The notes under the pieces are model-generated. The model ran no database searches. It was not told the origin of the DNA and saw only the letters and a list, made by a program, of their open reading frames with translations. A stretch of DNA of 36,297 nt from a virus: the IMG/VR virus record IMGVR_UViG_3300046028_009319, positions 1 to 36,297 of that record; one strand, written 5' to 3'. Position numbers and translations under genes: made by a program. The number at the start of each line of letters is the position of its first letter. Within the stretch, counting starts at the first letter, position 1. This document shows positions 2,928 to 22,581 of this stretch, in pieces.

Positions 2928-2941
2928 ATATACCTTTACAG
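2928..2941 (-). promoter_or_regulatory. GTGTAA-type box (variant CTGTAA)
   Basis: On the minus strand CTGTAA (2941-2936) is followed by 8 nt, AGGTATAT, and then the ATG at 2927. Six of the seven other boxes carry GTGTAA exactly, so this copy has one mismatch. Its spacing matches the others. Confidence 0.45.
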
Positions 2942-2992
2942 TATATAACAAAAAATGAGGTTAAATACTAGCATTTTGTTCGTGATATTGCA

Positions 2993-3700
2993 TTAATATT
3001 CTACAATATCTATCTTTTGAACGTTAGTTTCGCCCCACGCTTCTAAAGTGTGTTTAAAGGGAGAACCTTCAATGTTTTTAACCAGTTCGAGCATTTCTTG
3101 CGCTAATTCTCTGATTTCTAATTGAGCGTGCTCACTGTTGCGCAAGTTTTGAAAATTAGCAAAGCTTCTCATGTTGAAAGCGATGTCTGCTTGAATTTGA
3201 GAATTATAAGTCTTAAAAAAGCGAGCGCTTTCTTTAGCTCTTTTTCTGCCCAAAGTTGGCTCAAGATCTTTAACGCACTGATGATAAAGGGAGTTGCCCA
3301 GTTTAGTATACTCGTCTAGCAGACTTAACCATGAATTTCGAGGAGAATGATAAAAATTATCTTGAACTCCAATATGTTGCGATGGATACAACCCTTCCCA
3401 ATCTTCAGGAAGATAAAATTTGTCCTCTTTTAATTCTTTATATCTCGCCGATTCTGCATTCATTGATGAAATTCTGTGTTTAAGCAAATGAATGTGTGAG
3501 GCAATTTCGGTATCTACTAAAAAATGCACCATGCCTTTTTCCCAAGGAGTGTGATGACCTTCTCGCCACAGTCTCTGAATCATTCTGGGAATGCGATTTC
3601 TTTTCTCTTCGCTTAAATCTCTAGAAGTGGAAGTCCATGCTGAACAAGCAATGATTTCATCTGATCCGTAATATCCAATGAGTGATACTTTATTTTTCAT
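2993..3700 (-). CDS. thyX: FAD-dependent thymidylate synthase ThyX
   Basis: A 235-residue protein. ThyX makes dTMP from dUMP using methylene-tetrahydrofolate, FAD and NADPH, and acts as a tetramer. The signature RHRxxSxNxxSxR appears as KHRISSMNAESARY at 74-87. Only the first Arg is changed, to Lys. Other family features are GHHTPWEKG at 48-56 and a late AQLEIRELAQEM segment containing the conserved Arg. Length is typical. Its start overlaps the end of the metallophosphoesterase gene by 11 nt (ATGAAAAATAA), indicating translational coupling. It presumably supplies dTMP for an AT-rich phage genome. The Arg-to-Lys change could affect dUMP or FAD binding, but the rest of the motif is intact. Confidence 0.93.
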   Translation of the reverse strand: MKNKVSLIGYYGSDEIIACSAWTSTSRDLSEEKRNRIPRMIQRLWREGHHTPWEKGMVHFLVDTEIASHIHLLKHRISSMNAESARYKELKEDKFYLPEDWEGLYPSQHIGVQDNFYHSPRNSWLSLLDEYTKLGNSLYHQCVKDLEPTLGRKRAKESARFFKTYNSQIQADIAFNMRSFANFQNLRNSEHAQLEIRELAQEMLELVKNIEGSPFKHTLEAWGETNVQKIDIVEY

Positions 3701-4364
3701 AGTTTAGTTTATAGAGTTCAAGTTCAGCGCAAATGCGGCTTTTGCAACCGTTATTTTCTGCACGACAAACAGAGTGAAAGTGACCACAAAAATGATATTT
3801 AGGTTGGCAAAGCTCAATTAGTGAAGAAACGCCTTTTCTCTCTTCGCAGCATTCTGCCCAAAGAGTTGCATCGTCAACTTCCCAGCTACGAATTGGACCT
3901 TTAGTGGTTGGACCGTTCCAAATTGGAGCGGAATGAGTGATGAGAATATCGCACTTTTGAGCTTTTTCAGGAATTAAAACGAATTTTTCTCCTCGCCACC
4001 AAGATACTCCTTCTTGTCTAGCTTGTCGGTCAATGGATATTGCTCCACCCACAAAGAAGAATTTAATTCCTTTGATTTCTCGAAACGAATAATCTTCCAA
4101 AAGCTCGAAATTAGAGAATTTAAAATTGCCATGAAAAAAATCTGGATTGCTATGATTGCCGCGAATGCTCAAGTATTGAATATTCCTGCTTAAGAATACA
4201 CTATTTAAACGATCATATAAATCAAAAGATTCATACTGATCATGAAATCCTTCTCCACCATCACCAACGTGAAGAATGTAAGAGTCTCGCAAGTTAAATT
4301 TACTAATAATGCTTAATAATTTAGTATACTGACCATGATTGTCGCCAAGAATGTAAATGTCCAT
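3690..4364 (-). CDS. Calcineurin-like metallophosphoesterase
   Basis: A 224-residue protein starting MDIYILGDNHGQ at the ATG at 4364. A longer frame upstream uses a non-ATG codon and would overlap the previous gene. All motifs of the binuclear metallophosphoesterase family are present: D8-x-H10, GDGGEG (Asp35), RGNH (Asn70, His71), THSAP (His144) and GHFH (His195, His197). Family members hydrolyse phosphomonoesters or phosphodiesters, and the substrate here is unknown. There is no signal peptide. It lies 7 nt downstream of a 70-residue gene and overlaps thyX by 11 nt, so it belongs to the thyX operon. Phage homologues are often thought to act in nucleic-acid or nucleotide metabolism. Confidence 0.88.
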   Translation of the reverse strand: MDIYILGDNHGQYTKLLSIISKFNLRDSYILHVGDGGEGFHDQYESFDLYDRLNSVFLSRNIQYLSIRGNHSNPDFFHGNFKFSNFELLEDYSFREIKGIKFFFVGGAISIDRQARQEGVSWWRGEKFVLIPEKAQKCDILITHSAPIWNGPTTKGPIRSWEVDDATLWAECCEERKGVSSLIELCQPKYHFCGHFHSVCRAENNGCKSRICAELELYKLNYEK

Positions 4365-4371
4365 AGTGTTT

Positions 4372-4584
4372 TTATTCGTCAAAGTTAAAATTGTACTGTC
4401 TAGAATCATCAGACTGAGCAATGATGTTTTTAATATTAACCACTTCTTGGATTAAAACAACGTCTTTGGGAAAAGCTTCGCGTATTGTTGCGTAACTCTC
4501 AAAAGCTTGCGTGCGACTTGCGGTGGACAAACTGCTGATTGTATTGCCGCTGTGAATGATTTCGTATCTGGTTTGAGTGGTCAT
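4372..4584 (-). CDS. Hypothetical protein, 70 aa
   Basis: A short soluble protein beginning MTTQTRYEIIHSGNTISSLS and ending in an acidic tail, NFNFDE. The pattern (short strand, 'SGN', Ser/Thr-rich turn, 'A...YATIREAFPKDVVLIQEVV') suggests a small alpha/beta fold of the kind found as phage accessory proteins. No function is recognised. The ATG lies 5 nt beyond the T-run of the 4590-4615 hairpin, so its transcription depends on read-through or on a promoter I cannot see. It heads the metallophosphoesterase-thyX group. Confidence 0.6.
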   Translation of the reverse strand: MTTQTRYEIIHSGNTISSLSTASRTQAFESYATIREAFPKDVVLIQEVVNIKNIIAQSDDSRQYNFNFDE

Positions 4585-4589
4585 AAATG

Positions 4590-4615: not shown

Positions 4616-4660
4616 AGAGGTTTGGTTTGGCAAGTATAGAGAGAATTTCTCAGTTGTCAA

Positions 4661-4870: not shown

Positions 4871-4887
4871 AGTACTATATATTACAC
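4871..4887 (-). promoter_or_regulatory. GTGTAA box, small membrane protein gene
   Basis: GTGTAA on the minus strand at 4887-4882, then 11 nt (TATATAGTACT) to the ATG at 4870. This is an exact hexamer match with the longest spacing of the set. It gives the small membrane protein a transcription start of its own inside the lysis region. Confidence 0.5.
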
Positions 4888-5523: not shown

Positions 5524-5524
5524 G

Positions 5525-6221: not shown

Positions 6222-8162
6222 TTAACCTGTTACTGTCCAACCCTTGGCAGTTGCAATGCTTCTTGTGCAAGTGGCGGCACCAGGATTGTTTGTAATAGTA
6301 ATTGTTTGCGCTCCACTAGCAGTTCCTAAACCTGTAAAGATGTCGTTAAGTGCAGTTGCTGATAGCTTGCAACTAGCGTAACTAATAGCAAATCTTATTC
6401 CATTTGTACGACCTCGACATAGACTTGGGCAGGAATTAAAAATAAAACTATTTGATGCAGAATTGATTGCTGCTGTATTGAATATAGGAATACTCGATAG
6501 GGTTAAACAAGTATTAAACATCAAACTCATATTGGTTGCTGCTACTGTATTAAACAGAGGTACATTTTGTAAAGACCTACAACCATCAAACATATTACTC
6601 ATATTACTTACTAAATTTGTAATTAATAAAGGAACAGTTTCTAGGGAATTACAACCATTAAACATCAGATTCATATTAGTTACAGCTGCTGTATTAAATA
6701 AAGGTATAGTTCGTAAAGCTAAACAGCTAGCAAACATATTAGTCATATTAGTTACAGCAGATGTATTAAATAAAGGTACAGTTTGTAAAGAAGTGCAAGC
6801 ATTAAACATCTGCTGCATATTATTTACAGCAGATGTAATAAATAATGGAACAGTTTTTAAAGAAGGGCAAGTATTAAACATTTGAATCATATTAGTCACT
6901 GCTGCTGTATTAAATAAGGGTACACTATTTAAAGAGTTACAAGAGCCAAACATGCCACTAATATCAGTCACTGCTGATGTATTAAATAATGGAACAGTTT
7001 CTAAAGAAGAACAATTTGAAAACATGCCAGACATATTTATCACTGCTGCTGTATTAAATAAAGGTACGCTTTTTAAAGAGCGGCAAGAGCTAAACATGCC
7101 ACTAATATTAGTTACAGCAGATGTAATAAATAAAGGTGTACTTTGTAAAGAAAAGCAATTTTGAAACATACTACTTATATTAGTAACTGAAACTGTATTA
7201 AATAAAGGTACGCTTTGTAAAGAAGAGCAACCATTAAACATCAGATTCATATTAGTTACAGCAGATGTAATAAATAGCGGAACATTTTGTAGTTGATTAC
7301 AAGTATTAAACATCAAACTCATATTAGTCACTGCTGACGTATTAAACAAAGGCACAGTCTTGAGAGACTGGCAAGAATTAAACATACTACTCATATTAGT
7401 CACTACTGCTGTATTAAACAAAGGTAAACTTTTTAAATTATAGCAAGAACTAAACATGCTACTCATATTAGTCACTGCTGATGTATTGAATAAAGACAAG
7501 CTTTGTAAATTATAACAAGCATTAAACATACTACTCATATCTGTTACTAATAGACTATTTAGTAAAGATACGCTTTGTAAAAAAGGGCAATTGCTAAACA
7601 AATAACTCATATTAGTAATAGAATTATTATAAATTGTAACTTGTTGAAGCGCAGTCAATCTAACTATAACAGTTAATGCGCTAATATTCAAGGCAGTCAT
7701 GGCTGAAGCATTAATAGCCACGTCTAGCCAGTTAATTCTTGATGCTGCAATAGGAGTATTAAGTGGATTTTTCCGCTGTAAATCAAATGTTGTAATATTT
7801 CCTCCTTGTGATGTAACTGTGACGACTACTGGCTTATACTCCCCTACAACTGATGCTGTAATACTAGCATAATCATATGTGTGATTAGCCTGAACATTAC
7901 TTGCTATTCCAGAGTCAATTACACCATCACCCCAATCAACTGTATACGTTCCAGCGCTTGTCGCGACTAATAAAGATACAAAATTGCTATCAGTACTATC
8001 AACACCATATATAGCAGTAAACGTATTATCTGTGGATGTTAAATCTGCTAGCGCTGGCCATGCTGGTCTGACCCAAGGAGTCGGTGCAGGTGGAGACACT
8101 TCACTGATAGAATCCAAGTATAAAACTGGAGCTGTTCCTACATATACGGCTGCGCGGCTCAT
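6222..8162 (-). CDS. BspA/DUF285 repeat protein, probable fibre/adhesin (1)
   Basis: A 646-residue protein. The N-terminal part has TPWVRPAWPALADL near residue 30 and a PKD-like strand set (TYTVDWGDG, then NHTYDY) around residues 70-95. Residues ~185-575 hold 16 copies of a 24-residue repeat, consensus VPLFNTSAVTNMSxMFxxCxSL, the DUF285/BspA leucine-rich-like type, each with one conserved Cys. The C-terminus (ALNDIFTGLGT, ITITNNPGA, GWTVTG) is shared with its two paralogues. Such repeats usually form a solenoid used in adhesion, so a receptor-binding role on the virion is likely. There is no signal peptide. Its ATG overlaps the stop of the 59-residue gene upstream (ATGA). Confidence 0.88.
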   Translation of the reverse strand: MSRAAVYVGTAPVLYLDSISEVSPPAPTPWVRPAWPALADLTSTDNTFTAIYGVDSTDSNFVSLLVATSAGTYTVDWGDGVIDSGIASNVQANHTYDYASITASVVGEYKPVVVTVTSQGGNITTFDLQRKNPLNTPIAASRINWLDVAINASAMTALNISALTVIVRLTALQQVTIYNNSITNMSYLFSNCPFLQSVSLLNSLLVTDMSSMFNACYNLQSLSLFNTSAVTNMSSMFSSCYNLKSLPLFNTAVVTNMSSMFNSCQSLKTVPLFNTSAVTNMSLMFNTCNQLQNVPLFITSAVTNMNLMFNGCSSLQSVPLFNTVSVTNISSMFQNCFSLQSTPLFITSAVTNISGMFSSCRSLKSVPLFNTAAVINMSGMFSNCSSLETVPLFNTSAVTDISGMFGSCNSLNSVPLFNTAAVTNMIQMFNTCPSLKTVPLFITSAVNNMQQMFNACTSLQTVPLFNTSAVTNMTNMFASCLALRTIPLFNTAAVTNMNLMFNGCNSLETVPLLITNLVSNMSNMFDGCRSLQNVPLFNTVAATNMSLMFNTCLTLSSIPIFNTAAINSASNSFIFNSCPSLCRGRTNGIRFAISYASCKLSATALNDIFTGLGTASGAQTITITNNPGAATCTRSIATAKGWTVTG

Positions 8163-8338
8163 TCTTTTACAATGTAAACTGTGTTGTCGTTAATAATTCC
8201 AGAAGCTGCTAACGCTGCATAATTTGCAGGCGTTAGCATAACAAAAGTGGGAATGCTAAGAGAAGCTCTGATTCCGCTAGCTTGAACCAGAGTTGGTCCA
8301 ACTCCAGAAGGTGGGGTTGCTAAGTCGATGTTTGCCAT
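8159..8338 (-). CDS. 59-aa adaptor-type protein coupled to BspA gene 1
   Basis: A short gene, MANIDLATPPSGVGPTLVQA at its start, ending in TPANYAALAASG then NDNTVYIVKE. It is clearly homologous to the 61-residue protein at 12312-12497 (GPTLxQASGxRxSxxIPTFV, YAALxAxGxxxxNTxYIVxE). The Y-x-A-L...D-N-T-[IV]-Y-I-V ending resembles the short motif found in many phage fibre and tail proteins. The ATGA overlap with the BspA gene predicts translational coupling. A GTGTAA box lies 9 nt before its ATG. Role inferred: virion attachment adaptor or chaperone for the fibre. Confidence 0.8.
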   Translation of the reverse strand: MANIDLATPPSGVGPTLVQASGIRASLSIPTFVMLTPANYAALAASGIINDNTVYIVKE

Positions 8339-8353
8339 ATGTACATTTTACAC
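8339..8353 (-). promoter_or_regulatory. GTGTAA box, 59-aa/BspA-1 operon
   Basis: GTGTAA on the minus strand at 8353-8348, then 9 nt (AATGTACAT) to the ATG at 8338. It marks a separate transcription unit for adaptor, BspA copy 1 and the genes down to the endolysin. Confidence 0.6.
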
Positions 8354-8403
8354 ACAAAACCCCCAAAGATTAGCAATTAAAATGAATAGAAAATTAAAGG
8401 AAC

Positions 8404-10341
8404 TCAACCTAAAACAGTCCATAGTTTGCCCGATGCAATGCTTTTATCACAAGTTAAAGCTCCAGGGTTATTAGTGATATTGATTATTGGAGATGAGATG
8501 CCAGTTCCTAAGCCTGAGAATACGTCATTAAGAGCGGATGTGGAGAGTTTTGCATTAGCATAACTGATGCCATATCTTATTCCACTTGTGCGACCAGAGC
8601 ATAAAGAAGAACATCCAGCAAACATATTTCCAACACTAATATTTATACTACTCGTGTCAAACTGAGGAACGCTTTGTAAGCTTGCACAATTTGAAAACAT
8701 ACCAGACATAGTTCTTACTCCACTCGTATTAAATAGAGGCACAGTTTTTAAAACTGCACAGCTTGCAAACATATTATTCATACCTGTGGCAGCTGTGGTA
8801 ACAAACTGAGGAATACTTTGTAAAGAAGAGCAGATTTCAAACATAGTTTGCATAGTTATTACTTTGCTAGTATCTAATAAAGGCACAGTTGGTAAACTAG
8901 AGCATACCCGAAACATATTACCCATACCAGTAACATTTGATGTAACAAATTGTGGAACGCTTTGCAAAGAGGTGCAAGAATTGAACATATCGCTCATTTC
9001 AGTTACATTATTAGTAGTAAATAATGGAATAGTTTTCAAAGAATAACAATTTTGAAACATTTGTCCCATAGTAATTACATTAGGAGTATCGAATGTGGGA
9101 ACATTTTGCAAAGAATAGCAATTCGCAAACATCTGAAGCATAGTAATTACAGCTGTTGTAACAAATAGTGGTACAGTTATTAAAGAAAAGCACAGATTAA
9201 ACATCTGAGTCATATTTGTTACTGCTATAGTATTAAATAAAGGTATAGTTTGTAAAGATCGGCAACCGACAAACATGGTGCTCATATTTGTTACTCCTAT
9301 AGTATTAAATAAAGGCACGTTTTTTAAAGAAGAGCAATTACTAAACATACTCGCCATGGATATTACAGCCACTGTATTAAATAGAGGAACACTTTCTATA
9401 GAAGCGCATTGAACAAACATAGAACTCATATTTGTTACGCCTATAGTATTAAATAACGGTATATTTTTTAAAGAAAAGCATCCGTAAAACATTTGACTCG
9501 TAGTAAGTAAACTGCTTGTAGTATTAGATATAAATACAGTTTGTAAAGAGTGGCAATTATAAAACATATTCGACATAGTGGTAGCTGCGGCTCCACTAGA
9601 TATAGAAGCATTTTTTAAAGCAGTACAACCATCAAACATGCTCAACATAGTAGTTACGTTAGTAGTATTGAATTCAGGAACACTCGTTAAAGAGCTGCAA
9701 CCATTAAACATATATTGCATATTATTTATAGATGCAGTATTAAATAGAGGAACACTTCGTAAAGAATAGCAATATCTAAACAGAGTAGATGCGCTAATTA
9801 AACTATGATTATAAATTTTTACTTGTTCAACATTAACTAAAGTGGGAGATGCGCCCCCAACTGACAAACTCGTCATTGATGCGGCATTAATAGCAATATC
9901 CAGCCAATTAACTGCATTGGCAGCAGTATACGATGGATGTTTCACTTGCAAATTAATGCTAGTAATATTTCCTCCGACCGAAGTAATTGTAACAATTACG
10001 GGTTTAAGTCCATTTACAGGACTTGATGTAATACTTGAATAAGTATATTGATGACTAGCGGTAGTTCCATTCGGTATTCCAGTATCAGGTGTGGTCCCAT
10101 CTCCCCAATCAACTGTATGTGTGCCGCCACTACTCGTAAAAACAATAAATGCTAAATAATTTACCTCTGATGGATCAACGCCAAATACTCCTTTAAATAC
10201 ATTGTTTGTTGGCGTTAAATCTCCTAAACTTGGCCAAGCTGGCCTTGTCCAAGGAGTGGATATTTCAGGATCAGCTATACCGCTACCATAATCTAAAGTA
10301 AGAATGGGATTAGTTCCTTTGTATAATGTTGTATAACTCAT
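8404..10341 (-). CDS. BspA/DUF285 repeat protein, probable fibre/adhesin (2)
   Basis: A 645-residue paralogue of the 6222-8162 and 10375-12315 proteins with the same three-part plan: N-terminal STPWTRPAWPSLGDL and PKD-like HTVDWGDG, then 17 repeats of about 24 residues with the MFxxCxSL core, then the shared C-terminus (ALNDVFSGLGT, INITNNPGA, LWTVLG). Repeats have drifted from those of the paralogues (many VPLFNT units alternate with VPQFVT/VPQFDT), suggesting diversification of a binding face. It lacks its own small adaptor gene and GTGTAA box: 33 nt separate it from the upstream paralogue, so it probably reads from the 12497 promoter. Confidence 0.87.
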   Translation of the reverse strand: MSYTTLYKGTNPILTLDYGSGIADPEISTPWTRPAWPSLGDLTPTNNVFKGVFGVDPSEVNYLAFIVFTSSGGTHTVDWGDGTTPDTGIPNGTTASHQYTYSSITSSPVNGLKPVIVTITSVGGNITSINLQVKHPSYTAANAVNWLDIAINAASMTSLSVGGASPTLVNVEQVKIYNHSLISASTLFRYCYSLRSVPLFNTASINNMQYMFNGCSSLTSVPEFNTTNVTTMLSMFDGCTALKNASISSGAAATTMSNMFYNCHSLQTVFISNTTSSLLTTSQMFYGCFSLKNIPLFNTIGVTNMSSMFVQCASIESVPLFNTVAVISMASMFSNCSSLKNVPLFNTIGVTNMSTMFVGCRSLQTIPLFNTIAVTNMTQMFNLCFSLITVPLFVTTAVITMLQMFANCYSLQNVPTFDTPNVITMGQMFQNCYSLKTIPLFTTNNVTEMSDMFNSCTSLQSVPQFVTSNVTGMGNMFRVCSSLPTVPLLDTSKVITMQTMFEICSSLQSIPQFVTTAATGMNNMFASCAVLKTVPLFNTSGVRTMSGMFSNCASLQSVPQFDTSSINISVGNMFAGCSSLCSGRTSGIRYGISYANAKLSTSALNDVFSGLGTGISSPIINITNNPGALTCDKSIASGKLWTVLG

Positions 10342-10374
10342 GCTTATGATTGGTAAGTTTATGTTGATAATATT

Positions 10375-12497: not shown

Positions 12498-12539
12498 ACA
12501 ATATTATACACTCATCCTTTTAAACGTGTAAAAATATTC
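12498..12539. promoter_or_regulatory. Divergent pair of GTGTAA-type boxes
   Basis: The 42 bp between two divergent ATGs carry one box on each strand. Minus: GTGTAT at 12511-12506, then 8 nt to the ATG at 12497. Plus: GTGTAA at 12526-12531, then 8 nt to the ATG at 12540. The flanks are near mirror images (AATATTATACAC versus AATATTTTTACAC). No Shine-Dalgarno is present on either side. Confidence 0.6.
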
Positions 12540-13604: not shown

Positions 13605-13619
13605 GTGTAAAGATTTCCG
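13605..13619 (+). promoter_or_regulatory. GTGTAA box, lipoprotein gene
   Basis: GTGTAA at 13605-13610, then 9 nt (AGATTTCCG) to the ATG at 13620. It lies in the 28-nt gap after the protease gene, so the lipoprotein can be expressed separately. Confidence 0.55.
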
Positions 13620-14002: not shown

Positions 14003-14011
14003 AAGAGAGAC

Positions 14012-14082
14012 AGCGGGCAGCGGGAATCGAACCCGCATAGCTAGTTTGGAAAACTAGGACTTTACCACTAAGCTATACCCGC
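14012..14082 (-). tRNA. tRNA-Gly(UCC), no encoded CCA
   Basis: Acceptor GCGGGTA pairs with TGCCCGC and discriminator T follows. The anticodon stem CTAGT/ACTAG holds loop TTTCCAA, giving UCC (reads GGA, by far the commonest Gly codon in the tail genes here). The 3' flank is not CCA. Length is 71 nt. Confidence 0.95.
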
Positions 14083-14090
14083 AAAATAAA

Positions 14091-14177
14091 CGATGGAGGA
14101 GAGATTTGAACTCTCGGTAGCTTTTAAACTACGACGCTTTAGCAAAGCGTTGCCTTAAACCACTCAGCCACTCCATC
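14091..14177 (-). tRNA. tRNA-Ser(GCU), no encoded CCA
   Basis: Acceptor GATGGAG pairs perfectly with CTCCATC, with discriminator G. Anticodon loop TTGCTAA gives GCU (AGC/AGU). The long variable arm (GTAGTTTAAAAGCTAC) is typical for serine. Its 5' end lies only 6 nt after the stop codon of the outer-membrane protein gene, so it is probably cut out of that mRNA. Confidence 0.95.
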
Positions 14178-14183
14178 TTAATG

Positions 14184-14687: not shown

Positions 14688-14725
14688 ATATGTTGTTTGT
14701 TTGGGTTTCTTGATAAGAACTACTC

Positions 14726-14754
14726 ATTATTATCAAAAATTATTTAAAAGTCAA
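14726..14754 (-). promoter_or_regulatory. Sigma70-like promoter, barrel protein and tRNAs
   Basis: On the minus strand TTGACT (14754-14749), a 17-nt spacer, then AATAAT (14731-14726). Both hexamers match the sigma70 consensus at five of six positions. It would start transcription about 30 nt before the ATG at 14687. The window has few such sites, so it suggests host-polymerase (early) expression. An imperfect TTGATAA/TTATCAA inverted repeat (14710-14736) overlaps the -10 region and could be an operator. Confidence 0.5.
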
Positions 14755-14945
14755 GTACAAAATTTACTTCCTTTTCTAAAGAGTAAAGAATTCATCCAGG
14801 TTCTTTGTCCTGCTGTGAACTTATCTTGTTTCAGGATAAAGTCAAGAGTTTTTTGATCTGATTCTCCCTCAACGGAGAGATGCATCATTTTTGTAATGAG
14901 AGCTATATCAGAGTGCAAATAAGTGAAGTCGCTAGTGTCAATCAT
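14751..14945 (-). CDS. Hypothetical protein, 64 aa
   Basis: A small protein, mainly helical: DIALITKMMHLS, then GESDQKTLDFILKQDKFTAG and QRTWMNSLLFRKGSK. The ending (two helices with a 'KQ-x-x-W-x-x-x-L' turn) resembles short helical modules found at the ends of phage DNA-handling proteins. That is weak, and I assign no function. The ATG at 14945 is 13 nt after the CCA end of tRNA-Trp, so its mRNA 5' end may be made by tRNA processing. Its 3' end overlaps the -35 of the next promoter by 4 nt. Confidence 0.6.
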   Translation of the reverse strand: MIDTSDFTYLHSDIALITKMMHLSVEGESDQKTLDFILKQDKFTAGQRTWMNSLLFRKGSKFCT

Positions 14946-14958
14946 ATTAATTATAAAG

Positions 14959-15034
14959 TGGGATACCCAGTAGGACTCGAACCTACAACCAACAGTTTTG
15001 GAGGCTGTTGCTCTACCAATTGAGCTATGGATAC
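14959..15034 (-). tRNA. tRNA-Trp(CCA), 3' CCA encoded
   Basis: Acceptor GTATCCA pairs with TGGGTAT (two G-U pairs). D-arm GCTC...GAGC and T-arm GTAGG/TTCGAGT/CCTAC are present. Anticodon loop CTCCAAA gives CCA for Trp. Anticodon stem ACAGC/ACTGT has one mismatch next to the loop. CCA follows a C at the discriminator position, which is unusual. Length is 76 nt. Confidence 0.88.
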
Positions 15035-15045
15035 GTATGTTAAAA

Positions 15046-15120
15046 TGGCTCCCAAAGTAGGACTCGAACCTACAACTTATTCCTTAACAGGGAATCGCTC
15101 TGCCATTGAGCTACATGGGA
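15046..15120 (-). tRNA. tRNA-Asn(GUU), 3' CCA encoded
   Basis: Acceptor TCCCATG pairs with TTTGGGA, with one T-T mismatch and one G-U. Anticodon stem ATTCC/GGAAT carries loop CTGTTAA, giving GUU. The D-arm and T-arm are normal. Discriminator is G and CCA is encoded. It lies 31 nt after the metallopeptidase stop. Length is 75 nt. Confidence 0.92.
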
Positions 15121-15151
15121 GTGTTTGGTTTAAAAATTGTTTATTAGTATA

Positions 15152-15736
15152 TTACTCAATTGGATGGCATTTTTCAAAAATTAATTCCATGATGCTCATG
15201 TCGATCTTTTTAAAAGATTTTAAAGTGGAAAGAGTTTCGGGCATTTTGTCACTGATGTCTGGATAGTATTGCTTGAATGAAATGTCAGTATTGCTAATGA
15301 ATGTGTAGCACAAGTGGTGCAAATAAGCATTAGCTCTTTGACAGTACTTTTTGTGGCATCCTAGATTCCATTTTTTAACTAGTTGAACTGCACGAAATTC
15401 ACAATCATGTTCAATCTTTAAAATTTGCCAGAAAGAACTCCAGCTATTCATAGAGACTGCTCCTGATTTTAAATCACAATAAAAAGAATCATCATGATCC
15501 CACAATGAGCTACCATTCACTGCTTGCATCAAGTGGCAAAACTCATGAACAAAAGTGTCTTCAAAAAGAGAATCTTTTCTAGCTACCACCATTGTGTTTC
15601 CATCGCAAAAGCCTAAACAATTTCCACTATTGCGAACGTAAAATGTTGGTCGTATATCTATTTTCTTTTTGTGCTTACGAGCATACTTGCAAGCCCAAAC
15701 ATAAAACAGTTTAAAATTAGGAGAAAACTTATTCAT
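15152..15736 (-). CDS. Zinc metallopeptidase (HExxH)
   Basis: A 194-residue protein with the zinc signature HEFCH at 64-68 (FVHEFCHLMQ). A helix further on, KIEHDCEFRAVQLVKK (107-122), contains Glu109 and Glu113, either of which could be the third ligand. There are many Cys and His residues but no signal peptide. The pattern HEFxHxxQ followed by xExxCExxA is one I associate with small uncharacterised phage/bacterial metallopeptidases of the gluzincin type. The substrate is unknown. It is encoded between the HNH gene and tRNA-Asn on the same strand. A 25-codon hydrophobic frame overlaps its start by 8 nt. Confidence 0.75.
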   Translation of the reverse strand: MNKFSPNFKLFYVWACKYARKHKKKIDIRPTFYVRNSGNCLGFCDGNTMVVARKDSLFEDTFVHEFCHLMQAVNGSSLWDHDDSFYCDLKSGAVSMNSWSSFWQILKIEHDCEFRAVQLVKKWNLGCHKKYCQRANAYLHHLCYTFISNTDISFKQYYPDISDKMPETLSTLKSFKKIDMSIMELIFEKCHPIE

Positions 15737-15806
15737 TGACTGCGAAAAATGAACAAAGCAAAAACCCTAAGCAAAAGCACAAACTACATAAAAAAAAAGT
15801 GATCAT
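15729..15806 (-). CDS. Candidate hydrophobic micropeptide, 25 aa
   Basis: ATG at 15806 opens a 25-codon frame beginning MITFFLCSLCFCLGFLLCSF and ending AVNE. It is almost entirely hydrophobic with four Cys, and its stop overlaps the metallopeptidase ATG (ATGAATAA). Its position, filling the 82-nt gap after the HNH gene and coupled to the next start, is the only support. Poly-T DNA makes chance hydrophobic frames likely, so this is tentative. Confidence 0.3.
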   Translation of the reverse strand: MITFFLCSLCFCLGFLLCSFFAVNE

Positions 15807-15818
15807 AAAAAAGTGGAG

Positions 15819-16196
15819 CTAACTTTCGGGATTGAACTGGTGGATCACAATTTCTCTTTTTCGTGTTCCTTTGCCTTTATTTTTTCCTTTGTATGAGTCT
15901 GTAAGAGCATGACAATTAGGACAAATTAGTTGCAAATTATTTAATTGATTATCTTTTGCGTTTCCATTCATATGATGAATCTCTAGTGGAATAGGATTAT
16001 CTTGCCAAGAATCAAGCGAGCATGACTCGCATTTATGCCCTCTTGTTCTCAAGATATAATCTTTAATAGTTCTTAAACTAGAATGAATTGGATTCCATGT
16101 TCCACTCTCTATTTGCATAGCAGCTTTCTCTTGTTGAAATTGCGCTGTTTTTAACGCTCCTTTTCTTCTTTGTTCTGGTGTAAAAATATATTTCAT
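15819..16196 (-). CDS. HNH endonuclease
   Basis: A 125-residue protein with a complete zinc-supported HNH domain: CESC (Cys56, Cys59), LEIHHMNGNAKDNQLNNLQL (His74/His75, Asn86) and CPNCHALTD (Cys92, Cys95, His96). A basic tail (KGKNKGKGTRKRE) probably binds DNA. A free-standing HNH gene inside a tRNA cluster is typical of phage homing endonucleases, which cut phage DNA lacking the gene and spread by repair. The start codon lies 4 nt after the CCA end of tRNA-Thr, leaving only TTTT as leader if the tRNA is processed. Confidence 0.9.
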   Translation of the reverse strand: MKYIFTPEQRRKGALKTAQFQQEKAAMQIESGTWNPIHSSLRTIKDYILRTRGHKCESCSLDSWQDNPIPLEIHHMNGNAKDNQLNNLQLICPNCHALTDSYKGKNKGKGTRKREIVIHQFNPES

Positions 16197-16200
16197 AAAA

Positions 16201-16275
16201 TGGAGCCTTCGACAGGACTTGAACCCGCAATATCCTCATTACAAGTGAGGTGCTTCACCATTAAGCTACGAAGGC
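16201..16275 (-). tRNA. tRNA-Thr(UGU), CCA encoded
   Basis: Acceptor GCCTTCG pairs perfectly with CGAAGGC, with discriminator T and CCA. Anticodon stem CCTCA/TGAGG holds loop CTTGTAA, giving UGU (reads ACA). The T-stem GCGGG/CCTGT contains one G-U. It is followed after 4 nt by the HNH start codon. Length is 75 nt. Confidence 0.94.
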
Positions 16276-16283
16276 AAATAAAG

Positions 16284-16356
16284 TGGAGAAGTGGGGACTC
16301 GAACCCCAGGCATATAACTTGCAAAGCTATCGCTCTACCAACTGAGCTACATCCCC
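16284..16356 (-). tRNA. tRNA-Ala(UGC), no encoded CCA
   Basis: Acceptor GGGGATG pairs with CTTCTCC (one G-U, one T-T mismatch), with discriminator A. Anticodon stem ATAGC/GTTAT (one C-G, one G-U) carries loop TTTGCAA, giving UGC (reads GCA). D- and T-arms are regular. It is the first tRNA of the cluster. Length is 73 nt. Confidence 0.92.
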
Positions 16357-16363
16357 ATAAAGT

Positions 16364-16391
16364 ATGGTATCATGAGAAGAGAATTTTTCAA
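16364..16391 (-). promoter_or_regulatory. Weak sigma70-like promoter, tRNA cluster
   Basis: On the minus strand TTGAAA (16391-16386), 16 nt, then TACCAT (16369-16364). The tRNA-Ala 5' end is 8 nt beyond the -10 hexamer. The -35 matches well and the -10 only at four of six positions. Confidence 0.35.
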
Positions 16392-16398
16392 GCGAAAT

Positions 16399-16560
16399 CT
16401 ATAGCCCAAACTTCGATTCAATTTTGCTGCAAAATTTATTAAGAAAATTTGGAAAAGCCTTTTTTCTAAACTCGCAAAAGATGCCAATTGGCATCACAAC
16501 AATAGTATAAAAAACAACATAAAGAAACATGGTAATTCGATTCATAATTTTAGTCATCAT
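16399..16560 (-). CDS. Small single-span membrane protein, 53 aa
   Basis: ATG at 16560 (a second ATG follows directly) opens a 53-codon frame starting MMTKIMNRITMFLYVVFYTI. A hydrophobic span at about residues 11-29 (MFLYVVFYTIVVMPIGIFC) is followed by a basic, amphipathic tail (EFRKKAFPNFLNKF, KIESKFGL), so N-in or C-in single-pass topology is likely. It fills the only gene-free gap between the phosphatase and the tRNAs on the same strand. A polar start, a membrane segment and a basic end make chance less likely. Function is unknown. Confidence 0.55.
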   Translation of the reverse strand: MMTKIMNRITMFLYVVFYTIVVMPIGIFCEFRKKAFPNFLNKFCSKIESKFGL

Positions 16561-16589
16561 ATTTTACATCTAGTTTGGGGATTAAATTT

Positions 16590-17018
16590 TTATTTGTTTA
16601 AAAGATTAAAGTAATTTACCATAGTGTTGTATATGTATAAATTTGGACGAGCAATTTCTCTGCCGTACTCACCCCAAAAATAATCCATTTTATCGTGGCA
16701 AAATTTGGCAACTGCTCCAGAGCGACCTTTGCCGCCAAAGCAATTCACTATAACATTAGATTTTGAATTAGAGAGTAAAAAATCAACAATCTTTTCAATC
16801 TCTTGTTTCTCTGGAGGCATTCTCCATTTTTCATTGAAGAAATGAGGCTCTTGTAAATTCCAAGCAGAGACTTTTAAAGTCTTTAAGTTTTCTAAAATTT
16901 TGTTTTCAACTGGAGCGTCCTTCTCGTATGGATTTGAAAAAGAAATCCATACTGTGTCAGAAGAAGCGTATTTGATTTCATTAGCTTTAGTTTGAGGTAG
17001 ATTACGAACTGTTTTCAT
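16590..17018 (-). CDS. Cys-based tyrosine/dual-specificity phosphatase
   Basis: A 142-residue protein with the phosphatase loop C-x5-R-S as NCFGGKGRSGAVAKF: Cys93 is the nucleophile, Arg99 binds phosphate, and Ser100 assists leaving. The usual His before the Cys is Asn92. A likely general acid could be an Asp/Glu in NLQEPHFFNEKW (54-65). The fold length fits small phage and bacterial PTP-like proteins. Substrate is unknown: protein phosphotyrosine, or an RNA or nucleotide 5' phosphate. Its start overlaps the stop of the glucosaminidase-like lipoprotein gene (ATGA), so the two are coupled. Confidence 0.8.
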   Translation of the reverse strand: MKTVRNLPQTKANEIKYASSDTVWISFSNPYEKDAPVENKILENLKTLKVSAWNLQEPHFFNEKWRMPPEKQEIEKIVDFLLSNSKSNVIVNCFGGKGRSGAVAKFCHDKMDYFWGEYGREIARPNLYIYNTMVNYFNLLNK

Positions 17019-17704
17019 GATTGTATTCTAGTCATCCATTTTTGCACTCCAGTAGTCCAATGTTTATTGATGCCACTAGGATCATTATAGTCTTTGCTTT
17101 TTTTATTCGTGATCACGGGACAATACTTGGCTTGAATTTTAGAAATACTAGTTCTTCCTTCGTCAATATAATTTTCTTTTAAATTAGATGCTGTTCTGGT
17201 TAAGCACTCAGTTACAGATGAGAACTTCATTGGACCCCATTTACCAGTCAATTTATTACGATACATTTGGCCGCTCACATTATTATATTTTTTAGCGTAG
17301 ATGGATTCTCCATTGCCAGTTTCATGACAGCAAACTGCCGCCAAAAACAATGGACAGATTTTGTACTTGTTGCTAACATTAATAATGTCTTGACCTTTAT
17401 TCAGCAGCTTACCCTTTAAAGTTTTGTTTAAAAGTTTAGCTGTTAAAGGATAGGGTTTAGTGACGTTATAATAAGATGAAATTTTTTGTTTGGGCGCAAC
17501 TTGAACAGGAGCTTTACCTGATGCTTTAATGTATGATGTTAAAACTTCATCTTGCATAGGATCGGCTGAATGTGCAATAGCATCTCTCTCAGGATTCAAG
17601 TTAAATGATGGTCTAGAACTATTGAATTTAAATGATGGTTTAGAGCAAGAGCATATTCCCATCAATGCCAAATTAGAATAAATAAATAATTTAATTAGTT
17701 TCAT
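17015..17704 (-). CDS. Glucosaminidase-domain lipoprotein
   Basis: Starting at the ATG at 17704 gives 229 residues beginning MKLIKLFIYSNLALMGICSC, a lipoprotein signal with likely lipobox ICSC (Cys20). An upstream non-ATG start would bury this signal. After a disordered Ser/Pro/Asn linker, residues ~95-225 resemble the mannosyl-glycoprotein endo-beta-N-acetylglucosaminidase (FlgJ-like) fold: CPLFLAAVCCHETGNGESIY with a candidate catalytic Glu, then YNNVSGQMY and W-rich end GINKHWTTGVQKW. It would hydrolyse peptidoglycan glycan strands while tethered to a membrane. It is translationally coupled to the phosphatase gene. Confidence 0.78.
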   Translation of the reverse strand: MKLIKLFIYSNLALMGICSCSKPSFKFNSSRPSFNLNPERDAIAHSADPMQDEVLTSYIKASGKAPVQVAPKQKISSYYNVTKPYPLTAKLLNKTLKGKLLNKGQDIINVSNKYKICPLFLAAVCCHETGNGESIYAKKYNNVSGQMYRNKLTGKWGPMKFSSVTECLTRTASNLKENYIDEGRTSISKIQAKYCPVITNKKSKDYNDPSGINKHWTTGVQKWMTRIQS

Positions 17705-17743
17705 AGCAATAGAGTTTACATTTAAAGTTTTCACCAATTATAA

Positions 17744-17780
17744 CCTGCAACTAATATAGCAGGGTTGCATCATCATGCAA
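17744..17780 (-). other. Two short inverted repeats after UV endonuclease gene
   Basis: The 84-nt gap between the UV-endonuclease stop and the lipoprotein start holds TTGCAT-CATC-ATGCAA (17765-17780) and CCTGC-10 nt-GCAGG (17744-17763). On the minus strand the second is followed by TTATAATT rather than a real T-run. They may be weak terminators or mRNA-end structures. Confidence 0.35.
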
Positions 17781-17787
17781 GCTGAAA

Positions 17788-18699
17788 TTACGAATTATTC
17801 GCTGCTAATTGGCGGATTTTAAAAATAGCATGACATTTGTGCTTCAACTCAACATCCCAAAATACTGGACGATTATAATTAGGAGGATAACCGTTTGGCA
17901 TGTCAGCATGTTTACGAGTCTCTTTACCCTTCTCTACTATTCCCTCTGAGTAATGAAACAATGGAGTGATGAAGTTCCAAGAGTCTGCTGCTGAATGGAA
18001 AGCGTAATCAGGAGTCCAGTCATCACTCAACAGCTTGTGATGCAATGCGTCGAATGTGATAGGAATATTTGGAAAGTATTGAAGAAGATTCTTGATGCTC
18101 CAAACTCCTTTGGCATTGTCATTGTTCTCAATGACGAGTCGGTTGCGAATAGAGTTGGGCAAAGAGTCGTAAACTTTCATTACTCTTCTTGCAATGCCCA
18201 ATGGCTCCCCATCTTGTCGAACGTGAATGTTTAATGGACTTTGATAAGTTTCTGGCAAGCCAAGCAGGTCAAAGATTTCAGCATGTTGCTTCAAGTCAAG
18301 AATACTATTCTCAATGCAATTCTCATCCAAAGAGCTTAGTGTGATGTACTCACTAGGATGAGCAGAAATGCGCAGATACTGTTTCTGCAATGTTTGCTTG
18401 ATGCTTTCACACTCTTGCAAAATCAAAGGATAATTTGGCAAGTCGCTAATCTTTAAATTAACATTTTTATGAGTGAGAACTGGAGCAAGAGATGATGAGA
18501 GTCGATATCCTTGAATGTAATTGTTTTGGCAGTATTTAATTGTACGATGAGTAATTTGAAAGTTGTGCAAAATGCGAGCGCACAATTCATTCATAGATTC
18601 ATCTTGAGGGTTTTTACAAAACTGAGTGTAAGTCATTGTTTTAAAACGATGACCTTCATCAGAGAGACTTTTAGAGATGCAGCAAAGGGATAAGTTCAT
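17788..18699 (-). CDS. uvsE: UV DNA damage endonuclease (UvdE/UvsE)
   Basis: A 303-residue TIM-barrel protein. Motifs of the UvdE family run in order: an N-terminal CCISKSL, then RISAHPSEYITL (His in barrel strand), NIHVRQDGEP, LVIENND, ITFDALHHK, and a late HYSEG and HADMP, then DVELKHK. These supply the His, Glu and Asp ligands of the metal cluster. The enzyme nicks DNA 5' to UV photoproducts and other lesions, starting repair without UvrABC. Length is normal. Being phage-borne, it would protect viral DNA, for example in a sunlit environment. It lies alone between the lipoprotein gene and the 39-residue gene. Confidence 0.92.
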   Translation of the reverse strand: MNLSLCCISKSLSDEGHRFKTMTYTQFCKNPQDESMNELCARILHNFQITHRTIKYCQNNYIQGYRLSSSLAPVLTHKNVNLKISDLPNYPLILQECESIKQTLQKQYLRISAHPSEYITLSSLDENCIENSILDLKQHAEIFDLLGLPETYQSPLNIHVRQDGEPLGIARRVMKVYDSLPNSIRNRLVIENNDNAKGVWSIKNLLQYFPNIPITFDALHHKLLSDDWTPDYAFHSAADSWNFITPLFHYSEGIVEKGKETRKHADMPNGYPPNYNRPVFWDVELKHKCHAIFKIRQLAANNS

Positions 18700-18732
18700 G
18701 CTTCAATATGCCGAGAGTTCATGCCTCGTCAA

Positions 18733-18852
18733 CTATTTTTTGGGATTTTTTGGAATTTCAACTTTACGAAAGATTTTATCATAGTTGTCTCTGTAGGCTT
18801 TTAAGTTTGCGCCTTTGCGAAGTTTTGATCCTTTTCCAGCTTCTTTATTCAT
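18733..18852 (-). CDS. Small basic phage protein, 39 aa
   Basis: ATG at 18852 opens a 39-codon frame beginning MNKEAGKGSKLRKGANLKAY and continuing RDNYDKIF. A short Gly/Lys/Arg start followed by 'Y-x-x-N-[YW]-[DE]-x-I-F' is a pattern I recognise from tiny basic proteins of many tailed phages, of unknown function. The strong basic charge suggests nucleic-acid binding. It is divergent from the 18874 structural gene (21 nt between ATGs). Confidence 0.7.
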   Translation of the reverse strand: MNKEAGKGSKLRKGANLKAYRDNYDKIFRKVEIPKNPKK

Positions 18853-18859
18853 AATATGA

Positions 18860-18873
18860 GTGTAATTTATTTT
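18860..18873 (+). promoter_or_regulatory. GTGTAA box, structural gene; decides the start
   Basis: GTGTAA at 18860-18865, then 8 nt (TTTATTTT) to the ATG at 18874. Because the box falls inside the six codons added by an upstream ATG at 18856, it argues for 18874 as the true start. Confidence 0.6.
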
Positions 18874-20205
18874 ATGGCGCAGACATATACTTTTCAAAAT
18901 TTAAATCAACTAGCTCACTCTGCTGGGCATGTTCCTTTCATCTATGATCGACAAAATGATTATTATAGAGCAATGGAAAATTCAGACATGGGCTTGTTGA
19001 ATAGCTCAAGCTCTACAAGTTTAGATGCTTTTGGCAGATTGAGAACTTCCACGCCATTAACATTATTTGATTCTAATCACAGATACACTGACAATAATTT
19101 GTGGAATACTTTGAGTGGAACTGGAGGAGCTATAGCTTTTAATGCTAATCAAGGATTAATGGATTTAAGCACTACAACAGCTTCTGGCTCTGCTGTTATC
19201 AGAGAAACTACAAAAGTTTTTGCTTATCAAGCTGGTAAGTCATTGCTCACCATGAATACTTTTGTCATGTCCCCAGCTAAAGCTAATTTAAGACAAAGAA
19301 TTGGTTATTTCTCTACTGAAAATGGAATGTATTTAGAATTAGATGGAACCAATTTAAGTCTTGTAAAAAGAAGTCTTGTGGGAGGTTCAGTGTCTAACAC
19401 TTCAGTTCTTCAAGCATCTTGGAATGGAGATAAACTAAATGGAACTGGACCTTCTCGTTTAACCTTGGACGTTACAAAAGCTCAAATTTTGTGGATGGAT
19501 TTTGAATGGTTGGGAGTTGGAACTGTTCGTACTGGTTTTATTATTAATGGACAATTTATTGTTTGCCATTCTTTTCATCATGCTAATTTAATTTCTTCTA
19601 CTTATATCACAACAGCTTCTTTGCCGCTTAGATATGAATTAGTTAATACTAATACTACTGCTACTGCTAGTACTTTAAAACAAATATGCTCCACCGTTTT
19701 ATCAGAAGGTGGATATGAAGTACGAGGATCTCAAAACGTAGTTTCTCTTCCTGTTGCCTCTCCTAGAACTTGTACGCTTGCTAATGTTGAATATCCAGTA
19801 ATCTCTTTAAGATTAAAATCAAATAAATTAGATGCTATTGCTATACTATCAGCAGTAAGCGCTATAGGACTTGGTAATAATGCATTATTTAATTGGACAT
19901 TAGCTGCAAATGGAACTACAAGCGGAGGAAGTTGGATTACTCAAAGCGCTAATGCTGCAATAGAATACAATATAAGTGGAACTGGATTTGCTATTGGCTC
20001 TGGAAGATACATTGCTGGAGGATATTTCTCATCTGACTCTCAAGGAAGGGTGCCAATAACTCTTGCTGGAACTGATTTATTTAAATTTCAATTTGAAAGA
20101 AATTCTTTAACATCAACTCCATATGAGCTATCATTTGTTGTTTCGTCTAAAGCTGCTGGAGATTTAGCTTATGCATCTATTGACTGGGAAGAAGTGGTAA
20201 AATAA
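18874..20205 (+). CDS. Virion structural protein
   Basis: A 443-residue protein starting MAQTYTFQNLNQLAHSAGHV. The 18856 ATG is rejected in favour of the one placed 8 nt after the GTGTAA box. Residues ~50-75 (SLDAFGRLRTSTPLTLFDSN) match a hallmark I know from large structural proteins of tailed phages, where 'DAFGRLRxSxPxTLFD' opens a beta-rich domain. The rest is strand-rich with Thr, Ser and Asn repeats and ends DLAYASIDWEEVVK. Probably a baseplate, tail or head decoration component. No enzymatic motif is seen. It is a single-gene unit ending exactly at the stop of the convergent HNH gene. Confidence 0.8.
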   Translation: MAQTYTFQNLNQLAHSAGHVPFIYDRQNDYYRAMENSDMGLLNSSSSTSLDAFGRLRTSTPLTLFDSNHRYTDNNLWNTLSGTGGAIAFNANQGLMDLSTTTASGSAVIRETTKVFAYQAGKSLLTMNTFVMSPAKANLRQRIGYFSTENGMYLELDGTNLSLVKRSLVGGSVSNTSVLQASWNGDKLNGTGPSRLTLDVTKAQILWMDFEWLGVGTVRTGFIINGQFIVCHSFHHANLISSTYITTASLPLRYELVNTNTTATASTLKQICSTVLSEGGYEVRGSQNVVSLPVASPRTCTLANVEYPVISLRLKSNKLDAIAILSAVSAIGLGNNALFNWTLAANGTTSGGSWITQSANAAIEYNISGTGFAIGSGRYIAGGYFSSDSQGRVPITLAGTDLFKFQFERNSLTSTPYELSFVVSSKAAGDLAYASIDWEEVVK

Positions 20206-20772
20206 TTAAATCAAAAAATCTTTCCACTCTTCTCTTTGCGCATTAGCATTTAAAACAAAAGCTGGAATAGGTGGAGCATTCACTTGTTCATTTTTAATGT
20301 TAAAAAATGGGAATTGACTTCCTTTTCGATTGTTGCATTTTGTGCAAGCAAGAGTTCTATTGTGATGATCATCCGTTCCGCCATTACTTCTTGGCAAGAT
20401 GTGATCAATTGTCAGTTCGCAAAGTTTAAATTTATTTAAACAATACTGACATTTATAATTGTAAATTTTTGCTAGTTCGCCAAGAGAGAGCTTAGTCTTT
20501 TTGTATTGGCGGAAAAACTTGTGAGTAACCACAATGATTGTGGGAATGGGCCAAGACTTTTGAGAACTTCTTAAAACTGGTTGATTTTCAAAAAACGAAC
20601 CGTTTTTAATCCACTGTGAAAAAGTGGAGAATATATTTTGATTAGCATCAACAGCACCCACTCTCTCTTTTAAAATGTGTAAAAAAGCTGCGCGAGCAGT
20701 GACAGCGCAAACTGGTTGCCATGCACTGTTTAAAAGTAAAGAAACTTTAGCATTTGGATCTACTGCATTCAT
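20206..20772 (-). CDS. HNH endonuclease
   Basis: Starting at the ATG at 20772 gives 188 residues (a further upstream TTG is possible). The N-terminus (VSLLLNSAWQPVCAVTARAA) is the usual leader of this HNH subgroup. The catalytic part has CQYC, then LTIDHILPRSNGGTDDHHNR with Asp123-His124, and CTKCNNRKG, so the two Cys pairs form the zinc site and the His-Asn pair the active site. It could be a homing nuclease or a DNA-packaging-associated nuclease. Its stop abuts the stop of the convergent structural gene with no gap, and no terminator lies between them. Confidence 0.9.
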   Translation of the reverse strand: MNAVDPNAKVSLLLNSAWQPVCAVTARAAFLHILKERVGAVDANQNIFSTFSQWIKNGSFFENQPVLRSSQKSWPIPTIIVVTHKFFRQYKKTKLSLGELAKIYNYKCQYCLNKFKLCELTIDHILPRSNGGTDDHHNRTLACTKCNNRKGSQFPFFNIKNEQVNAPPIPAFVLNANAQREEWKDFLI

Positions 20773-21315: not shown

Positions 21316-21316
21316 T

Positions 21317-21571
21317 TTAGTTGTTGGAGAGTTTGAGTTCAAAGGTTACTAATCCTAGTTCATCTTTATTAGCTAAGAAACCATTGATTAGAATAGTTTT
21401 TTCATCAATGAAAAAAGTGTTTTTAATTTCCATCGTGTATTCAGCATCGTTTAAAAAAACAGTGTGAATCATATGATCGTTGTTTGGTAAACAATTTAAT
21501 CGTATTGAATAAGAGTGAAGTGCATCTAGTTTCGAGAACTGGAAGCTTGATTCGATGAGTTTAGCAATCAT
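21317..21571 (-). CDS. Hypothetical protein, 84 aa
   Basis: A beta-rich small protein, MIAKLIESSFQFSKLDALHS, then SIRLNCLPNNDHMIHTVFLN, with strands EYTMEIKNTFFIDEKTILI and a C-terminal GLVTFELKLSNN. No motif is recognised. It overlaps the nuclease-like gene upstream by ATGA and is followed after 1 nt by the next start, so the block is tightly packed. It may be an accessory or host-interaction protein. Confidence 0.6.
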   Translation of the reverse strand: MIAKLIESSFQFSKLDALHSYSIRLNCLPNNDHMIHTVFLNDAEYTMEIKNTFFIDEKTILINGFLANKDELGLVTFELKLSNN

Positions 21572-22083
21572 TTTGTGAATATAATGTGTTTTATGTTGTC
21601 TATGATGTCAGTTATTTTTATGAGAGAGAGAAGATCTTTTCGATTCTTTCGTTGATAGCCAGTGTAGAGTGGCATGTGACTATGCACATTAATCAAGGAA
21701 GTGTCAACAAGTTTTTCAGAAAGTTTTGCTAAAGACTGTCGATTCACCATGATGAAATCGCTTTCGCGTTCAAAGCAAATGAAATCAGCTTTGCCATATA
21801 GCCAACCATTGCGACCCTGCACGTTTTTAAATTCAATCCAAATCAAATCATCGTTGACTGAACTATCTGCACGATTGATTTTTTTTCTACTTTTAACGTC
21901 AACAGAAATCTCCAATCCTTTTTCAGACTTTAGATGAAAGTCTATGTGATTCATCTCATCGTTAAAGGATGCTTTTGCAACTTGAAATCCATTTTTTTGA
22001 GCACAAGAAGAGAAACAGTTCTCTGCATTCTGCCCCATCTCTAAAGCTGCACCGCTCGAATCAAATTTGTTTTTATTCAACAT
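21568..22083 (-). CDS. PD-(D/E)XK-like nuclease
   Basis: A 171-residue protein starting MLNKNKFDSSGAALEMGQNA at the ATG at 22083, which overlaps the previous gene by 11 nt. Residues ~45-70 read HIDFHLKSEKGLEISVDVKS, an Asp followed by D-V-K, the usual spacing of the PD-(D/E)XK nuclease core. Then IWIEFKNVQGRNGWLYGKAD adds an E-x-K-N segment and GWLYGKAD, a combination I recall from phage proteins of this fold. Likely Mg2+-dependent DNA nuclease, with targets unknown. It is the only recognisable enzyme in the 20864-22543 block. Confidence 0.65.
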   Translation of the reverse strand: MLNKNKFDSSGAALEMGQNAENCFSSCAQKNGFQVAKASFNDEMNHIDFHLKSEKGLEISVDVKSRKKINRADSSVNDDLIWIEFKNVQGRNGWLYGKADFICFERESDFIMVNRQSLAKLSEKLVDTSLINVHSHMPLYTGYQRKNRKDLLSLIKITDIIDNIKHIIFTK

Positions 22084-22543
22084 GTTGTTTGTACCAATAC
22101 ACTGCAATTTTATCATTGTCAACAACTAGTTTACACGATTTTACATAACGTTTAATCCAAGAAAGATATTGTTTTAATTTAAATTTGCGAGTGATGCCGC
22201 TATAAACGTATTGACACTCTGGATTTTGTTCAAAAAGAAAAGAATAAAATTCATTTAAAACTCTATCCACATCTTTCTGAGGAACTGAAATGTTCATGCC
22301 AAAAAATACTTTGATGTGGTCGCTCATTTTTTCAAAAGAAATAAAAATTTGTTCGTTACTATTTGATTCTATTAAGTATTTTATTTCAGCTTTTTCTAGA
22401 AATTGAATGTAGTCATTTATTTTTTTGCTTCTAATACTAGGCGAGGGATGAGAGCAAAAACTCATTGGTTTGGATTTTTTAAAAAACTCATAAAGAAGAC
22501 GATGCAACTCTTCATCAAAAGCATTTATTAATTTAAAATTCAT
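22073..22543 (-). CDS. Phage hypothetical protein, 156 aa
   Basis: Starts MNFKLINAFDEELHRLLYEF and ends KLVVDNDKIAVYWYKQHVE, with TRKFKLKQYLSWIKRYVKSC before that. The 'R-x-F-K/W-K-...-Y-L-x-W-I-K-R' and 'I-A-V-Y-W-Y-K' ending is a pattern shared by uncharacterised phage proteins. Alpha/beta composition. It is the first gene of the block, divergent from the tail module (38 nt between ATGs). Its 3' end overlaps the nuclease start by 11 nt. Confidence 0.65.
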   Translation of the reverse strand: MNFKLINAFDEELHRLLYEFFKKSKPMSFCSHPSPSIRSKKINDYIQFLEKAEIKYLIESNSNEQIFISFEKMSDHIKVFFGMNISVPQKDVDRVLNEFYSFLFEQNPECQYVYSGITRKFKLKQYLSWIKRYVKSCKLVVDNDKIAVYWYKQHVE

Positions 22544-22568
22544 AAATAATATTTATTATAGTTTAACA

Positions 22569-22581
22569 GTGTAAATACATC
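22569..22581 (+). promoter_or_regulatory. GTGTAA box, tail-tip operon
   Basis: GTGTAA at 22569-22574, then 7 nt (ATACATC) to the ATG at 22582. It is the only such box before the gpL-gpK-gpI-gpJ run, so it would drive all tail-tip genes to 31662. Confidence 0.6.

Follow-up and report, generated by a model that had tools for sequence, protein, structure and literature searches.

A GTGTAA box close before start codons in an uncultured phage lineage and a candidate phage sigma factor that may read it

The GTGTAA box in the window and its relatives

In this study we followed up a short sequence element, the hexamer GTGTAA, in a stretch of viral DNA, the IMG/VR record IMGVR_UViG_3300046028_009319. 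The window, as we call the whole stretch analysed, is the entire record of 36,297 bases; it is a fragment of a phage, and our scan for the box in the phage's own genome is limited to it. A sequence-only reading had placed GTGTAA or a one-base variant directly ahead of eight genes. All eight sites are present with the spacings to the ATG that it gave, six of them as exact copies (Table 1). That reading had further described the boxed genes as virion, lysis or envelope types, which could be checked only in part. PHROG matches bear it out for the minor tail protein gene at 22582 and the virion protein gene at 18874, while the sequences of 2927 and 4870 suggest small membrane proteins and that of 13620 a lipoprotein; the products of 8338, 12497 and 12540 were without a match. 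Its remark that metabolic and tRNA genes lack the box holds for thyX, the phosphoesterase, nuclease and glycosyltransferase genes and the tRNA genes.

The boxed minor tail gene heads a run of tail genes (22582-31662), and the later genes of this run have no box. The boxes at 12506 and 12526 point away from each other. The start of the repeat-protein gene 8162-6222 lies within the boxed gene 8338-8159. We observed that the region 6222-12497 encodes three long paralogous repeat proteins (645-646 amino acids, PHROG 22899), and that a short boxed gene overlaps the start of two of them.

Table 1. Boxes of the GTGTAA type and two sigma70-type promoters in the window (nt, nucleotides)
Feature	Position	Strand	Distance to ATG	Gene
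CTGTAA variant box	2936..2941	-	8 nt	2927-2610 (105 amino acids, small membrane protein)
GTGTAA box	4882..4887	-	11 nt	4870-4661 (holin-like small membrane protein)
GTGTAA box	8348..8353	-	9 nt	8338-8159
GTGTAT variant box (GTGTATAAT)	12506..12511	-	8 nt	12497-12312
GTGTAA box	12526..12531	+	8 nt	12540-12908
GTGTAA box	13605..13610	+	9 nt	13620-13865 (short lipoprotein-like protein)
GTGTAA box	18860..18865	+	8 nt	ATG 18874, virion structural protein gene (phrog_1645)
GTGTAA box	22569..22574	+	7 nt	ATG 22582, minor tail protein gene
Sigma70-type promoter TTGACG-16-TAAGAT	2156..2183	-	ends 6 nt before ATG	2149-1724
Sigma70-type promoter TTGACA-16-TACTCT	1685..1712	-	ends 5 nt before ATG	ATG 1679

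GTGTAA lies 7-11 nt upstream of 6 of 43 chosen window starts and of none of the 1335 other ATGs; the 43 starts were picked by hand, that at 18874 with the box in view, and the longest reading frame there starts at 18856 and would contain the box. When 2000 random sets of 43 window ATGs were drawn, the commonest hexamer of any kind never occurred more than 5 times. As a plain word GTGTAA is not over-represented in the window (17 observed, 18 expected from shuffling). The box is thus distinctive because of its position and not because of its overall count.

The endonuclease gene adjoining the boxed virion gene led to three related contigs with 91% identity in that protein, G001 (120 kb), G002 (74.6 kb) and G003 (37.9 kb), which can be aligned to much of the window with DNA identities of mostly 75-90%. 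DNA searches for close cultured phages gave no match, and solely distant matches of tail proteins were found. The pattern GTGTAA-N7-9-ATG occurs 9 times in G001, 10 times in G007 (165 kb) and 9 times in G008 (148 kb), whereas the reversed pattern is found 0, 0 and 1 times. For a broader count we used a set of 14 contigs, namely the window and 13 related phage contigs, with 1593 starts of script-called, uncurated genes. In the stretch 5-13 nt ahead of these starts no hexamer is as enriched as GTGTAA (116 observed, 2.6 expected), which at exactly 8-10 nt is found 97 times where 0.87 are expected. At the same 8-10 nt the variant GTGTAT is enriched 16-fold (9 versus 0.56), and CTGTAA more weakly (5 versus 1.5). 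A scan beyond the window had been suggested as a check by the sequence-only reading, and the box is indeed enriched before starts in relatives far outside it.

The box is also retained at orthologous starts, although the proteins are only 36-78% identical. It is kept before the holin-like gene 4870 in L092-L094, L104, L098, L103, L304 and L314 (53-78% protein identity), before the minor tail gene 22582 in L092/L196, L093, L104 and L325 (36-53%), and before gene 12540 in L092-L094 (70%). Where the window has CTGTAA ahead of gene 2927, two more distant relatives, L104 (67% identity) and L329 (65%), have exact GTGTAA. No orthologues of 8338, 12497, 13620 and 18874 were found in the relatives searched; distant phrog_1645 relatives are without GTGTAA, and some have an AAATA-type sequence instead. 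The loci L089-L091 span only stretches of the window that are themselves without a box, and speak neither for nor against it. We additionally noticed that GIY-YIG-like endonuclease genes are boxed at L093:12307, at L095:880 and in G007 and G008, as if they had acquired a late promoter.

Promoter shape and a second promoter class

Across 107 instances we found no conserved sequence between -40 and the box, and no -35 element. There is a weak preference for T 3-4 nt upstream of the box, and the sequence downstream is A/T-rich. Among 124 boxed ATG starts with spacings of 6-15 nt the mode is 8 (8 in 54, 9 in 27 and 10 in 16 cases). At a spacing of 8 the presumed start base is the A of the ATG. At a spacing of 9 the eighth nucleotide after the box is a purine (A or G) in 23 of 27 cases, and at a spacing of 10 the ninth is one in 14 of 16. 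This recurrence of a purine, independent of the spacing, would fit a transcription start about 8-9 nt past the box, in which case the leaders would measure 0 to about 3 nt.

In the majority of the related contigs, sequences resembling a Shine-Dalgarno signal hardly exceed background ahead of most genes, and in all contigs together they precede 4 of 107 boxed genes. In G042 and G028, 34% and 24% of the unboxed genes have such a sequence, whereas none of the boxed genes there does.

A second promoter class of the sigma70 type is placed in a similar way. The pattern TTGAC-N15-18-TAnnnT ending 4-9 nt before a start is found 145 times, where 1.9 are expected, and its distance to the ATG peaks at 6 nt (67) and 5 nt (33). 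This is the distance at which a sigma70 polymerase would initiate at the A of the ATG. None of 134 genes with a sigma70-type promoter carries the box, against 9.6 expected. The placement is rarer in other contig sets (15/254 and 35/392 sites, versus 88/485). The window holds two examples (Table 1). The G001 orthologue (12871) of gene 2149 has TTGACT-16-TAAAAT ahead of its ATG, and the TTG listed as a start at 1712 is the TTG of the -35 element of the other promoter. We also observed that at 22543-22582 the opposite strand of the tail-gene box is overlapped by TTGACC-17-TACACT, which could serve gene 22543-22073; an earlier and a late promoter possibly share the same bases here in opposite directions.

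A candidate sigma factor

No domain of a multisubunit RNA polymerase beta' subunit was found in 13 contigs, and we therefore presume that the core polymerase is that of the host. A sigma-70 region 2 is present in five of the six relatives first searched. The first sigma type is encoded in G001 (41270-42028), G007 and G008, with about 40% identity among them, and it has at least 551 relatives in IMG/VR, among the first 600 matches. All 46 members scanned have the sigma2 domain (PF04542), and only 3 of 46 match the Pfam sigma4 domain. The architecture consists of a sigma2 domain, a four-cysteine (Cys4) stretch and a sigma4-like domain. In an AlphaFold model (mean pLDDT 81.5, pTM 0.43, so that the relative placement of the domains is not to be trusted) residues 1-76 superpose on sigma2 with an rmsd (root-mean-square deviation) of 2.1 over 76 residues. 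Residues 143-222 superpose on the sigma4 of an extracytoplasmic function (ECF) sigma with 2.4 over 70. Foldseek E-values for the whole model are weak (best 0.016), and the single-domain matches are the usable part; sequence searches of the PDB gave only marginal matches. The family has no match in a collection of 50,697 phage records. Six contigs from draft genomes carry the gene (Halobacteriovorax, Flavobacteriaceae, Flavobacteriales, Verrucomicrobiales and one unnamed bacterium), a set too mixed to indicate a host.

Contigs that were fetched for this sigma are rich in the box. In 44 of them (2.1 Mb) the pattern of box and ATG occurs 159 times versus 22 for the reversed pattern (75/Mb versus 10/Mb), while in 50 contigs without the sigma (4.6 Mb) the counts are 107 and 81 (23/Mb versus 18/Mb; Fisher p 2e-11 between the two groups). 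The sigma-less contigs G072 and G076 have 5-6 matches and no reversed ones. As G072 (44 kb) holds L104, whose genes are orthologous to those of the window, it is probably a piece of a genome of this lineage from which the sigma locus is missing. Of 52 sigma genes, not one has a box within 150 nt, which would fit a sigma that is synthesised before the box comes into use.

Interpretation, rival explanations and known systems

The sequence-only reading had raised the possibility of a promoter element read by a phage-encoded or modified sigma and giving leaderless or near-leaderless mRNAs. This gains support from the candidate sigma in the nearest long relative, G001, the box-enriched sigma contigs and a geometry like that of a -10 element. 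We consider it quite likely that GTGTAA is the -10-like core of late promoters, read by the Cys4 phage sigma and so placed that transcripts begin on the ATG or 1-3 nt ahead of it. The small phage sigma would join the host core RNA polymerase, and this polymerase would recognise GTGTAA without a -35 element. Transcription would begin about 8-9 nt downstream of the box, at the A of the ATG or up to 3 nt earlier, making the late mRNAs leaderless or nearly so. Earlier genes would depend on host-type sigma70 promoters, which likewise lie right next to the ATG, and exchanging one sigma factor for the other would switch the class of genes expressed. With a more moderate degree of confidence we favour the wider picture of two-tier leaderless expression in a large uncultured phage lineage. 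Here sigma70 promoters at the ATG would be followed by a new Cys4 sigma family reading GTGTAA without a -35.

The box might also be a promoter element that is read by another sigma, either an alternative sigma of the host or a second, ECF-type sigma, whose gene occurs in some relatives (G007:131269-131820, G008:58941-59456, G004, G005, L098 and L103). But of the larger box-bearing contigs, G001, G036, G042, G026 and G028, none of which is known to be complete, show the first sigma only, and it is the contigs picked by the first sigma that are so enriched in the box; we therefore hold another reader to be unlikely. A role in translation, as an unusual ribosome-binding signal, would suit the fixed spacing to the start codon and the near absence of Shine-Dalgarno sequences from boxed genes. 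However, the conserved 3' end of 16S rRNA has no complementarity to GTGTAA, and the internal genes of the tail run lack the box though they are translated too. The mutual exclusion of boxed and sigma70-promoter genes is what two promoter classes would give, and the purine tracks the distance from the box and not only the ATG, which makes a translation signal very improbable. We find it hardly credible that the box is the binding site of a phage repressor or activator overlapping host-type promoters. It is short, exact and conserved, as such a site might be, but it is not palindromic, keeps a single orientation and a set distance to the ATG, and is not surrounded by a -35/-10 pair.

Several observations weigh against a late promoter read by the Cys4 sigma. 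The sigma gene is absent from the window and is placed in its phage by way of the relatives, and with a second ECF-like sigma in some contigs the box could have another reader. A sigma4-like domain normally binds a -35 element, yet the boxed promoters show none. The association of sigma and box could stem partly from shared descent, as the contigs with the sigma perhaps all belong to a single broad lineage. For the minor tail gene of L098 and L103, about 30 nt separate the box from the closest ATG, and certain other orthologues of this gene have no box. Several boxed genes are non-virion (a GIY-YIG-like endonuclease, a PhoH-like protein and an ATP-dependent protease), because of which late timing is something we infer. 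The binding of sigma to box, the transcript start sites and the presence of the sigma gene in the phage from which the window comes are likewise inferred.

We saw no mention of a GTGTAA phage promoter in the literature searched, which excludes most subscription journals. Among known systems, gp55 of T4 is a late sigma that reads only a -10-like box, with no -35, for the late virion genes, and in this the candidate sigma described here would resemble it. The sigma family and the box are different, as the sequence-only reading had rightly said of the T4 late box (TATAAATA): ATAAATA is not enriched in these phages. A late box of the T4 type was rejected on counts of ATAAATA-N6-10-ATG, with 104 matches versus 87 in reversed controls (44 contigs). 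Kinship of the sigma with gp55 was likewise rejected, with an hhalign probability of 0.25% against A2 and gp55 belonging to phrog_234, the sigmas here to phrog_1740. Nor are the late mRNAs of T4 known to be leaderless, as those here would be.

The nearest in kind is gp36 of phiEco32, a phage ECF-type sigma with a short motif close to the transcript start. In this Kuravirus, and also in SU10 and 7-11, the ECF sigma serves middle and late genes; the motif is tAATGTATAtA, and transcripts begin 6-8 nt downstream of it (PMC4281155; also PMC4331800). Both gp36 (E 2e-45) and the sigma here (E 7e-7 to 1e-3) match PHROG 1740, whereas their direct sequence comparison shows no similarity. The motifs have only TGTA in common, and GTGTAA dominates here. 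phiEco32 has three middle and three late promoters, while here there are about ten per contig, at single start codons. Further differences from phiEco32 are the Cys4 insert between both sigma domains and promoters that abut the ATG. Judged from sequence, our best reading is that the system would be a new variant of the kind of switch made by phiEco32 gp36 and T4 gp55. Transcription starting at the start codon, as proposed here, is known from mycobacteria, which are leaderless-mRNA bacteria (PMC4633059). There it concerns the host's own genes, whereas here a virus lineage would have both sigma70-type and late promoters in that position.

Few pairings of phage sigma and promoter are known, almost all from cultured phages, and for the widespread uncultured lineage described here it may be possible to read the promoter code from sequence. 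The box can improve gene starts and could sort earlier from late genes without a culture. It offers a compact six-base, -35-free promoter together with a candidate cognate sigma. Should the mRNAs be leaderless, a large share of the viral programme would rely on translation free of leaders, which would be informative about the unknown hosts.

Two minor features of these genomes are also worth recording. In the window, seven tRNA genes lie at 13915-16356 on the minus strand, and between them are further small genes, one of them for an HNH endonuclease. In G001, at 15062-20490 (L197:15062-20000), some twelve short reading frames, lying on both strands and spread over about 5.4 kb, are built of 12-base repeats (TTCTGTAnGGAn) and encode repeat proteins of the SVxxSV type.

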